Source: an uncultured Flavobacterium sp. (lineage in GTDB: Bacteria > Bacteroidota > Bacteroidia > Flavobacteriales > Flavobacteriaceae). Taken from it: a DNA stretch of 6,061 bases. The DNA is taken from assembly GCF_946482535.1 (NCBI RefSeq), contig NZ_CAMLRU010000159.1:1-6061 (forward strand), given 5' to 3'. The translations under genes were made by a program, and so were the position numbers. The notes under the pieces are model-generated. The model saw nothing but the letters and a program-made list of their open reading frames with translations. It did no database searches and was not told the origin of the DNA. This document shows positions 2,735 to 5,229 of this stretch, in pieces. The stretch's first letter is position 1. The number at the start of each line of letters is the position of its first letter.

Positions 2735-3010
2735 ATGGAACAATTACAGAGTTTTTTACCGTTTTTATTGATGTTTGTGGTGATCTATTTCTTTATGATC
2801 AGACCGCAACAAAAGAAAATCAAACAAGAAAAAGAATTTGAAGCCGGACTAAAAGTAGGCGATAAAATCATCACCAAAAGTGGTTTCCACGGAAAAATCG
2901 CTGAGCTATCAGAAGGAACAGCCGTTATCGAAACCATGTCGGGCAAACTTAAAATTGAGCGTTCTGCTATTTCATTAGAGCTTACTGCTGCGGCTAACAA
3001 AAAAGCATAA
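2735..3010 (+). CDS. yajC: Preprotein translocase subunit YajC
   Basis: A small inner-membrane protein that associates with SecDF and the SecYEG translocon. The 91 residues show the standard layout: one N-terminal transmembrane segment (about 6-22, LPFLLMFVVIYFFMI), the signature RPQQKK at the cytoplasmic edge (23-28), a short charged helix, and a small beta domain with LKVGDKIITKSGFHGKI (39-54). The family is usually 85-115 residues, so it is complete. The ATG has an A-rich leader (AACAATTATT) without Shine-Dalgarno. It is the last gene of the nusB group: a hairpin spans its stop codon and the next gene converges on it. It is not next to secDF or tgt as in proteobacteria. Confidence 0.95.
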   Translation: MEQLQSFLPFLLMFVVIYFFMIRPQQKKIKQEKEFEAGLKVGDKIITKSGFHGKIAELSEGTAVIETMSGKLKIERSAISLELTAAANKKA

Positions 3011-3020: not shown

Positions 3021-3152
3021 AAATTCCAAATCTGAAATTCCAAAACCCAAAGAAATTTCTAATTTCTAATAAAAAATCCCAAACACCATTATTGGAATTT
3101 GGGATTTTTTTATTGGATTTTATTTGTACTTTGTTTTAAAAATTTGGAATTT
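3021..3152. repeat. Degenerate 7-base repeat array, inverted about its centre
   Basis: From 3021 the sequence reads in 7-base steps: AAATTCC, AAATCTG, AAATTCC, AAAACCC, AAAGAAA, then TTTCTAA twice. The decamer AAATTCCAAA occurs at 3021-3030 and 3035-3044. Its exact reverse complement TTTGGAATTT is at 3143-3152, with a 9-base version (TTGGAATTT) at 3092-3100. The right half therefore holds the same kind of unit on the other strand, and the centre is the terminator hairpin. The array fills the space between two converging genes and its last base is the final base of the stop codon of the minus-strand gene. Function unknown; it may have grown by slippage or be a family of dispersed repeats. Confidence 0.6.
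3071..3111. terminator. Bidirectional intrinsic terminator between convergent genes
   Basis: AAAAAATCCCAAA (3071-3083) and TTTGGGATTTTTT (3098-3110) form a 13-bp perfect stem with a 14-base loop. The A run on the left and the T7 run (3105-3111) on the right give a U tract whichever strand is transcribed, so the same hairpin can end yajC transcripts from the left and YdeI-family transcripts from the right. Position between two converging stop codons fits this role. Confidence 0.8.
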
Positions 3153-3733
3153 TACTTTCTGTATTTATCATTAAAACCTTTTCCTTCCAAAATCATAGGC
3201 GTGATTTTTTCCAATCGGGTGACTTTGGTTTTTTCTTGTTTGGCAGTCGCCATATATTCCCAATACTCTTTTTGTTTGAAAGGTGTGAGTTGCTCTAAAG
3301 CGGTTTTTAAGGCGGTATTTTTATTTAATTCAGCTTGAAAAAAATCACATTGCATGGCTTCTTTCTTTTCGGGCTTGATGGCCAGACCTTTTTTCTCATT
3401 TTCAATCGCTTCGTTCAAATAACGCAGGATGAGTTTTTCATCCAGTTCATCAGCCGAAGTAAAACGCCATTGGCGCAAGCCTTTCGTCACGCCTTCATTG
3501 GCATTGACTAAAACCTTAGCTTCATCTTTTAAGAAAACACCATTCCAAAACCATAAGGCAAAATAGTTCTTGAAACCGCCAATACCAATCACGTTTTTAT
3601 TGTTGATGGTATAGACTTCGCCACCCCATTTTTTGGTTTCCACCAATTCGGTTTTTTGAACAATTTCTCTCAATCGACCAATTTCTTCAGTCCATTGGTC
3701 GTTTTTCATCCAAGGATTTTTCTCTTCTTTCAT
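3152..3733 (-). CDS. YdeI/OmdA-family protein with DUF1801 domain
   Basis: A cytoplasmic protein of 193 residues without signal peptide or membrane segment. Residues ~12-112 fit a DUF1801 (YdhG-like) domain: the helical WTEEIGRLREIVQKT start, ETKKWGGEVYTINNKNVIGI and the aromatic KNYFALWFWNG strand. Residues ~130-192 fit the YdeI/OmdA module: ALKTALEQLTPFKQKEYWEYM, AKQEKTKVTRLEKITPMILEGKG and a terminal NDKYRK. Family members have been loosely tied to bacteriocin or stress protection and to iron chaperoning (frataxin-like fold), but no biochemical role can be assigned here. ATG at 3733 is used; Met9 is an alternative because the first eight residues (MKEEKNPW) are weakly constrained. It lies downstream of pepT on the same strand but separated by 154 bases holding a structured repeat, so co-transcription is uncertain. 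No clear promoter was found. Confidence 0.82.
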   Translation of the reverse strand: MKEEKNPWMKNDQWTEEIGRLREIVQKTELVETKKWGGEVYTINNKNVIGIGGFKNYFALWFWNGVFLKDEAKVLVNANEGVTKGLRQWRFTSADELDEKLILRYLNEAIENEKKGLAIKPEKKEAMQCDFFQAELNKNTALKTALEQLTPFKQKEYWEYMATAKQEKTKVTRLEKITPMILEGKGFNDKYRK

Positions 3734-3760
3734 TGGGTAATACTATTGCTTTTGGTTGGC

Positions 3761-3873
3761 TTCTCGATACTTTTCCTATCGTTGTAACCAACGATATGAA
3801 AAACTCGAAGTGACGGTTTAGCAGAGGTTCGTCAGTTCGAGTGGTTTTTACGAAGTAAAAATTGTATCGAGAA
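3761..3873. repeat. 113-bp cloverleaf-forming repeat element with 10-bp terminal inverted repeats
   Basis: The ends TTCTCGATAC (3761-3770) and GTATCGAGAA (3864-3873) are perfect inverted repeats. Between them, in order, are three hairpins. The first pairs 3771-3784 with 3789-3802 (14 positions, one C-T mismatch, loop TAAC). The second pairs ACTCGAA and TGACG (3803-3815) with CGTCA and TTCGAGT (3830-3842), with one G-G mismatch and a 14-base loop. The third pairs TTTTTAC (3845-3851) with GTAAAAA (3855-3861) around a GAA triloop closed by C-G. Together they allow a four-way junction using almost every base. No ORF lies inside. It sits between pepT and the YdeI-family gene, in the 3' untranslated region of pepT. 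Likely a REP-like or MITE-like dispersed element; mobility and copy number are not shown by this window. Confidence 0.65.
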
Positions 3874-3887
3874 CTTTCTCTAATTTG

Positions 3888-5180
3888 TTATTTCTTCTTA
3901 GCTATCTTTTCTTTTTTCGCTTTACCTTCTTTCTTCGTAAAATCAGTCGTAGCGGTTAACTCGGCAATCTTCACAATCACTTCTACCGCTTTCTGCATGC
4001 TTTCTACCGGAACGTATTCATACTTTCCGTGGAAGTTATGACCACCGGCAAAAATGTTCGGGCAAGGCAAGCCCATATATGACAAACGACAACCATCTGT
4101 TCCACCGCGAATCGGTTTGATTAACGGTTTAATGCCTAAAGATTTCATGGCTTTTTCGGCCAAATCTACTATGAACATTACCGGTTCTACCTTTTCCTTC
4201 ATGTTGTAGTATTGGTCCTTGATTTCGCAAATCACAATGTCTTCTCCGAATTGCTTCTTGAATGCTTTATTGAATTTTTTGGTGATTTTGTGCACCAATT
4301 CTTTGCGTTTGATGAACTTCTTCATGTCGTGGTCACGAATAATCATCTCCAATTTGGTTTCCTCAATACTACCTGTCAAACCGGTTACATGGAAGAATCC
4401 TTCGTAACCTTTGGTCTCTTGTGGGGTTTCGCCTTTGGGTAATTCATTGATAAAATCGTTGGCAATCAACATCGAATTAATCATTTTACCTTTGGCATAA
4501 CCGGGGTGAACCGATTTTCCTTTGAAGGTAATTTTCACACCGGCCGCATTGAAGTTCTCATATTCCAATTCGCCTATCTGACTGCCATCCATGGTATAAG
4601 CCCAATCGGCTCCGAATTTCTTCACATCAAACAAATCGGCACCGCGACCAATTTCCTCATCAGGCGTAAAACACACTCTGATTTTCCCGTGTTGGATTTC
4701 CGGATTTTGAATAAGATATTCCATCGCGGTCATGATTTCGGTAATTCCGGCTTTGTCATCGGCACCTAATAAAGTCAGACCGTTAGTGGTAATCAACGTT
4801 TGTCCTTTGTATTGCAATAAATCTTTGAAATAACTAGGCGATAAAACGATGTTTTGTTCTTTGTTCAGAATGATATCGCCACCATCATAATTCGGAATCA
4901 CTTGTGGTTTGACATCTTTCCCGGTAAAATCAGGCGTAGTGTCAAAATGCGATACAAAACCTATGGTTGGGACTTTGTGCTTCACATTCGAAGGCAAAGT
5001 CGCCATCACATAACCGTGTTTGTCAATGGTAACTTCCTTCATACCAATAGTCTTTAGCTCTTCTACCAATTTGTTGGCTAAATCGAATTGCTTTTTGGTA
5101 CTCGGCGTAGTAGTTGAATTCGGGTCTGATTCGGTATCAATAGTGACGTAGCTGATAAAGCGGTCTATAATGTGTTGCAT
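3888..5180 (-). CDS. pepT: Peptidase T (tripeptide aminopeptidase)
   Basis: A cytoplasmic M20B zinc metallopeptidase that removes N-terminal residues from tripeptides. Numbered from the chosen Met, the di-zinc site is intact: HFD with His78 and the accompanying Asp80, GADDKAG with Asp141 (bridging), PDEE with catalytic Glu175 and ligand Glu176, TMDG with Asp198, and [10 protein letters not shown] with His381. These match E. coli PepT (78, 140, 173/174, 196, 379) almost residue for residue. The dimerisation or lid domain occupies roughly 208-320. The start is placed at 5180 (MQHIIDRF) because that is where homology begins; an in-frame ATG at 5228 would add 16 unrelated residues encoded by repeat sequence. 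The protein is 430 residues, longer than the usual ~410, owing to a lysine-rich tail (about 416-430, [16 protein letters not shown]). Confidence 0.95.
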
Positions 5181-5196
5181 GGTTTTTAATTTTTGG

Positions 5197-5229
5197 TAAA
5201 GATAAGAATTAGGAAGTACAAAGTGCAAA
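5197..5229 (-). promoter_or_regulatory. Weak candidate promoter for pepT
   Basis: Read on the minus strand, TATCTTTA (5204-5197) matches TAnnTTTG at all but the last position. A TTTG (5229-5226) lies 21 bases upstream, inside the accepted -33 spacing. Transcription would start near 5190, about 10 bases before the ATG at 5180. That supports the shorter pepT start. The -33 element would be supplied by the 7-base repeat array. An independent promoter is expected because a strong terminator separates pepT from the upstream E1 gene. Confidence 0.35.

Follow-up and report, generated by a model that had tools for sequence, protein, structure and literature searches.

A tail-to-tail pair of CGTC-tagged REP units in Flavobacterium and its likely GIY-YIG nuclease partner

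We identified the structured element at positions 3761-3873 of the window, the whole 6,061-nucleotide stretch of Flavobacterium DNA analyzed, as a tag-inward (tail-to-tail) pair of inverted CGTC-tagged REP units that belong to 1 Flavobacterium family, each unit being a separate hairpin module. The likely partner of this family is a GIY-YIG nuclease of ~96 amino acids and not a RAYT. Taken jointly, the 2-REP anatomy and the nuclease association are almost certain, and paired CGTC REP units with a clade-specific GIY-YIG nuclease acting on them are probably the best explanation of the whole.

Two inverted REP units downstream of a pepT-like gene

The element lies inside a 154-bp gap (3734-3887) between 2 co-oriented genes, both on the minus strand: a pepT-like gene (3888-5228), a TTG-started ORF whose 3' end is 15 bp from the element, and a DUF1801/OmdA-domain gene (3152-3733) on the other flank. 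Drawn as a cloverleaf (3761-3873), it has an outer stem (3761-3770/3864-3873) and 3 arms, with pairing both between and within the 2 units. The first-pass annotation had described perfect 10-bp ends around 3 hairpins, a structure beyond chance, and a C-GAA-G triloop, and these features were borne out: the ends (TTCTCGATAC / GTATCGAGAA) are perfect, with 3 hairpins inside, the triloop is drawn in both the DNA and the RNA folds, and none of 200 shuffles matched the element's fold as either DNA or RNA. The minimum free energy DNA structure of the 113 bases had 43 pairs (86 of the 113 bases; -32.1 kcal/mol, z -9.62), and the RNA fold of the same bases reached -47.1 kcal/mol (z -8.03). As first delimited, the 113-bp element is too narrow: each unit's own stem takes in the bases flanking the 10-bp ends, so that the pairing units extend to 3759/3760 and 3874/3875.

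The right unit, of G type (3830-3875, plus strand), reads CGTC-A-GTTC-GAG ... CGA-GAAC-T and carries an apical TTTTTAC-GAA-GTAAAAA hairpin, and the left unit, of C type (3759-3815, minus strand), reads CGTC-A-CTTC-GAG ... CGA-GAAG-C on its own strand and carries a longer apical hairpin. Their CGTC tags, at 3830-3833 on the plus strand and at 3812-3815 on the minus strand (GACG on the plus strand), face inward across a 14-bp spacer (3816-3829); in the tag-inward pairs of relatives, spacers range from 12 to 92 bp. The unit core, CGTC-A-stem-GAG ... CGA-stem', carries an apical part that is hypervariable in sequence and for the most part self-complementary. With CGAG on both facing strands, the core would give 4-5 pairs, then a tandem G.A step, and then 1 G-C pair, the tandem G.A step being read off the sequence, as a step of a kind that the folding program does not draw. 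Apical inserts were 4 to ~75 nt long, mostly >20 nt, and their folds had a z below -2, against mononucleotide shuffles, in 174 of the 205 distinct inserts of at least 14 nt.

Scanned with a family-blind descriptor built on the core (YGTC, 1-2 nt, stem of 4, GAG, loop, CGA, stem'), the window gave exactly 2 matches, the left and right units; 1.53 Mb of background gave 18, and the reversed background sequence gave 0. The early suggestion of a REP-like sequence proved correct, the element being part of a multi-copy hairpin family whose exact pattern occurred in 67 of 199 Flavobacterium genomes, at up to 35 copies per genome and with compensatory changes within units. In relatives, units stood alone, formed inverted pairs of either kind, or lay in arrays; among neighboring units within 120 bp, 54 were tag-inward, 49 tag-outward, and 37 head-to-tail. 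When the element was compared with the genomes of 8 relatives, matches were found in 5, and 21 of the 22 matches listed started at element base 63 or later and therefore covered 1 element end only. The element matched no described RNA family up to E 1 in the Rfam release searched, plasmid records held no relative of it, and phage records gave none either (2 records of 1 phage, E 4).

Same-type units within 1 array shared like apical hairpins by eye (L315, 8924-10648, and L337; G154), and the apical hairpins differed, again by eye, from the G001 array to its G154 orthologue; the likeness within an array looks as if copies were homogenized inside it. Elsewhere in the window, an AT-rich inverted repeat follows the ORF ending at 3010 (3060-3112; sub-threshold Rfam NsiR1 match, E 0.2) and is probably a terminator-like hairpin. 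The lysine-rich C-terminus of the pepT product (3888-3960 and orthologues) varies in length among relatives via short repeats.

Pairing within the units and the orthologous gap in relatives

Counted directly on 268 distinct units, the variable stem pair within the unit was Watson-Crick in 215, against 112.7 on average and at most 135 when partners were re-dealt in 1,000 shuffles, which places the compensation within each unit. The remaining 53 units had no Watson-Crick pair at this place, and 37 of them were C/C. The inner arm of the cloverleaf is set by the same variable base, and here 41 of 54 tag-inward dimers were C/G and hence mismatched, with 7 dimers alike (C/C in 4, G/G in 3) and 6 of other kinds. 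Unit frequencies would give ~22 C/G pairs among the 54, so unlike pairs are favored; among tag-outward dimers, unlike C/G pairs made up 30 of 49. Read as 2 hairpins, the element has 3810 paired with 3760 and 3835 with 3874, and the G3810-G3835 mismatch is the signature of an unlike dimer. The mismatch that had been pointed out at these positions is thus real, but its interpretation as drift is not upheld: most dimers of this kind in relatives are mismatched there. Two independent hairpins can incidentally give a striking cloverleaf, and what marks such pairs is a kept mismatch, not drift.

In a DNA energy model of the whole single strand, the cloverleaf reached -32.3 kcal/mol versus -4.5 and -13.2 kcal/mol for the lone units, and by this calculation it may well form in single-stranded DNA. 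As a conserved unit, the cloverleaf was ruled out by the dimer pair counts together with the single-unit orthologues.

We examined 12 orthologous regions, 9 of which had both the pepT-like and the DUF1801 genes. The gap in G122 held a single unit, identical to the right unit of the window at 44 of 45 bases (the neighboring genes being 73 and 81% identical), and that in G356 held a unit pair with tags outward. The unitary cloverleaf proposed by the first-pass annotation was abandoned on this outcome, 1 unit only in the former and a reversed pair in the latter, which is of a kind named beforehand as refuting it. No family unit was found with the descriptor in the other 7 of the 9 gaps (G154, G234, G286 with an extra gene, G001, G190, G214, and G166), and the gap measured a few bases at L003 and 12 bp at L001, the G001 locus. 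With 1 unit, an outward pair, or none at the same gap, units therefore appear to come and go singly. Of the marks of a mobile family that had been proposed for intergenic copies, compensatory changes (within units) and empty-site orthologues were found and target-site duplications were not, no duplication or exact junction repeat being readable against relatives at such divergence. At L280 (G214), another palindrome (GAATCT...TTCTGAAACAAGTTCAGAAT) sits where the window has its REP pair, and the pepT-DUF1801 gap therefore takes up several kinds of repeat.

Small GIY-YIG nuclease genes among the repeats

One array (L102, L126) contained a 96-aa GIY-YIG ORF with REPs on either side, and the L126 protein matched Pfam PF01541 (E 4e-16). 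Among 22 close homologues from 50 genomes, a set that includes 1 locus where the nuclease idea arose, the descriptor was found within 500 bp in 19 and on both sides in 14; among 1,280 background ORFs, from 80 loci all around pepT, it was found within 500 bp of 25 and on both sides of 1. Two of the 3 close homologues without the descriptor had the window family with a changed stem base, and 1 had a similar palindrome lacking the tag (by eye). In a new set drawn from 199 genomes, with homologues at least 64% identical, the family tag lay within 500 bp in 24 of 25 and on both sides in 20 of 25, its background rate being 1 per 1.53 Mb. Of a further 40 homologues, at 47-62% identity, 39 had a descriptor repeat within 600 bp and only 2 had the window family. 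The window REP family flanks 1 clade of small GIY-YIG nuclease genes; different REP families built on the same core accompany the other clades.

More distant small GIY-YIG genes had the descriptor nearby in 3 of 8 cases in a mid-distance set, and those of the first 8 genomes in 2 of 17, both of which (L126 and L121) are the close-set loci L169 and L170. Long or uvrC-like GIY-YIG loci had the descriptor nearby in 0 of 13, a poor control because their flanks lie largely inside their own long frames. The distant small genes L118 (G001), L119 (G008), and L110/L117 (G003, G002) were seen by eye, outside the descriptor counts, to lie between other palindromes, of the TGTCATACTGACGAAGGAAGTATCTCA, TGTCATTGCGAG, and GCTGAACTAGTTTCAGCATC types. 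Another class of small GIY-YIG genes (L112, L120/L128, and L133) lay directly downstream of tRNA genes in tandem copies, with pieces like tRNA 3' ends repeated after each ORF; the layout of this class suggests insertion at tRNA 3' ends.

The distribution of REP classes tracks the nuclease tree. With labels set by hand from a table of the homologues, 5 REP classes on a tree of 81 of the 98 extracted proteins (omitting L110, L118, L119, L170, L175, L176, L190-L198, L218, and L261, 17 in all) required 4 changes, the minimum possible, against a shuffled mean of 43.7. With automatic labels, 85 of the 98 proteins (13 omitted: 3 short and 10 without a match) required 6 changes, against a shuffled mean of 45.9 and a shuffled minimum of 38. 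Both are quick trees in which many forks are open because the columns are few.

At the level of genomes, the exact REP pattern was present in 27 of the 31 genomes that carry the family's nuclease type vs 40 of 168 others (p 2.7e-11), at a mean of 8.0 copies with the nuclease type and 1.4 without. Leaving out G124 and G071, which were classed by their flanks, the counts were 25 of 29 vs 42 of 170 (p 3.5e-10). The REP therefore often persists without the nuclease type, as in those 40 genomes, with high copy numbers in G147 (21), G025 (17), and G211 (16); draft assemblies or loss may be the cause.

The 29 family nuclease loci shared neighbor genes (~1.5 kb) only within 3 small groups, of 3, 2, and 4 loci. 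The nucleases of G001 and G154 are 93-94% identical, and their 20-kb surroundings matched at E 1e-10 only in the REP-nuclease block and in 1 isolated REP. The G154 orthologue of the G001 site, where sequence matched on both sides, held a REP array of 7 tag-inward dimers in which the nuclease gene was not found (best protein match E 0.58), and the G154 nuclease gene lay in another REP cluster ~21 kb away. The gene is therefore present in one genome and absent in the other inside 1 orthologous array. This difference is the best evidence here for mobility of the gene, and recombination between REPs could also yield it.

Alternatively, old REPs might be retained for a structural role in RNA or DNA (as 3'-end protection of pepT mRNA, a terminator, or a gyrase or IHF-like site), the nuclease gene merely landing in the arrays. 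The strong RNA fold of the element, its place just downstream of the pepT stop between 2 co-oriented genes, and the many REP-bearing genomes without the nuclease type are all consistent with this; however, the 7 of 9 relatives that have both genes and no unit at the site argue against a conserved local role in the pepT-DUF1801 gap, and landing alone leaves unexplained that REP classes follow nuclease clades. We consider this explanation improbable.

RAYTs have a separate repeat family per enzyme clade, forming REPtrons, and the window family resembles REP/REPIN sequences with their RAYT in consisting of non-coding inverted hairpin pairs tied to 1 nuclease gene. A classical REP/REPIN mobilized by a RAYT, a Y1 HUH tyrosine transposase, had been among the first proposals for this element, and Y1_Tnp genes occurred in 144 of the 199 genomes, with the REP somewhat commoner there (56 of 144 vs 11 of 55, p 0.012). 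The inverted hairpin pairs and arrays also resemble REPINs and BIMEs as these appear in the part of PMC3733652 covered here. Yet among the 32 best-scoring Y1_Tnp loci the family tag lay within 500 bp in 0 and any descriptor repeat in 1, so no Y1 gene in that set was flanked by the window family; the tag is CGTC instead of GTAG, the associated nuclease is of the GIY-YIG and not the HUH Y1 type, and G003 has the REP with no Y1_Tnp match. A RAYT as the mover is thus very unlikely. Least credible of all is a MITE, a non-autonomous transposon whose 10-bp terminal inverted repeats would be acted on by an unrelated DDE transposase, which would account for the perfect 10-bp ends and the presence or absence at the orthologous site, but whose ends should be fixed as a pair, whereas the units are also single, tag-outward (49), or head-to-tail (37) besides the 54 tag-inward pairs, and no junction repeat was readable against the relatives, given their divergence.

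Known repeat systems and a possible nuclease mechanism

In the part of Di Nocera, De Gregorio and Rocco (2013, PMC3733652) covered here, CGTC REPs are described as 4 families, with Bacteroidetes among the hosts, that carry an unpaired CGTC (or TGTC/CCTC) tag at one hairpin end, a stem of 8-9 bp whose first 2 pairs are A-T, and, in most families, a loop of 4-5 nt. Their dimers are mainly tag-outward (HH) and rarely TT, unlike pairs are preferred in most families with no obvious explanation, and the Neisseria CGTC-1 repeats are equated with dRS3. According to the same part, these repeats have no dedicated transposase and no linked tyrosine transposase; it leaves the disperser open for that reason and has 0 mentions of GIY.

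Compared with that description, the window family likewise has a CGTC tag at one hairpin end, inverted pairs, arrays, common unlike pairs, and multiple copies in relatives. It differs in its stem, where a tandem G.A step comes after 4-5 pairs, in a second stem pair that is G-C or C-G in the window units although the first pair of the right unit is A-T, in an apical part of up to ~75 nt, and in having tag-inward dimers as often as tag-outward dimers (54 and 49). We therefore regard it as a related variant and not as one of the 4 CGTC families as there described, since its stem, loop, and dimer types depart from theirs. The part of PMC12306157 covered includes a table naming Flavobacterium genomes, and the window repeat family was not seen in that part. 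The literature searched, itself covered in part, yielded no paper that connects REP or dRS3 repeats with GIY-YIG proteins.

A 2025 Nature Communications paper reportedly describes Ssn, a family of site-specific nucleases for single-stranded DNA, within the GIY-YIG superfamily, whose targets in Neisseria are repeats (NTS), and is said to find many homologues, each with its own target sequences. As far as this account goes, the Flavobacterium system is like Ssn in having a small GIY-YIG protein with target-like repeats around its gene (24 of 25 in relatives). It is unlike Ssn and NTS in host phylum, repeat sequence, extended apical hairpins, and unlike-pair architecture, and the presence or absence of the gene within an orthologous REP array goes beyond that account. 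If that account is right, the link between nuclease and repeat is known in principle; what is added here is the window REP family, the 2-hairpin architecture with its kept mismatch, and the clade-by-clade match in Flavobacterium, as well as the tie of GIY-YIG nucleases to CGTC REPs and the varying presence of the gene in an orthologous array.

We propose that the nuclease would recognize its own REP as folded single-stranded DNA, whether on the lagging strand, in transforming DNA, or in a cruciform, and cut at or near the CGTC tag. Repair at such cuts might then copy or move units, and at times the nuclease gene, between REP clusters. The cloverleaf would be a by-product of 2 units lying inverted, and unlike stems together with unlike apical hairpins would keep the pair from becoming a long perfect palindrome, a possible reason for the prevalence of unlike pairs. 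We lean slightly toward cleavage of single-stranded REPs by the nuclease and hold mobilization by it more tentatively. Equally tentative is the idea that CGTC REPs and small GIY-YIG nucleases make up a second, independent REPtron-like mobile system, in which the nuclease of each clade would recognize, in single-stranded DNA, the tandem-G.A hairpin core of the REP family that goes with it, nick that core, and so spread the units and carry its own gene between REP clusters. If true, this would provide, in Bacteroidota, a mover for CGTC REPs, which had been described as having none. The clade-by-clade link between CGTC/TGTC REPs and GIY-YIG genes makes the disperser question, as raised in the part of PMC3733652 covered, testable.

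Such a system would also extend to alphaproteobacteria and Neisseria, via homologues amid CGTC hairpins. A GIY-YIG homologue was identified in 43 records of the plasmid collection, and among 10 records examined, a scripted scan found the gene flanked on each side by tagged hairpins in Rhizobium, Azospirillum, Neisseria gonorrhoeae, and Sphingobium, other palindromes were seen by eye on both sides in Sphingomonas, Methylobacterium, 2 Sinorhizobium, and Planktothrix, and no such repeats were found near Bacillus subtilis yazA. The N. gonorrhoeae homologue, 40.5% identical over 78 residues, sits amid CGTC hairpins, a repeat that we take to be dRS3. On a plasmid of Azospirillum lipoferum 4B (L268, 1363-1981), the GIY-YIG gene and its CGTC hairpins lie within the suf operon, between sufB and sufC.
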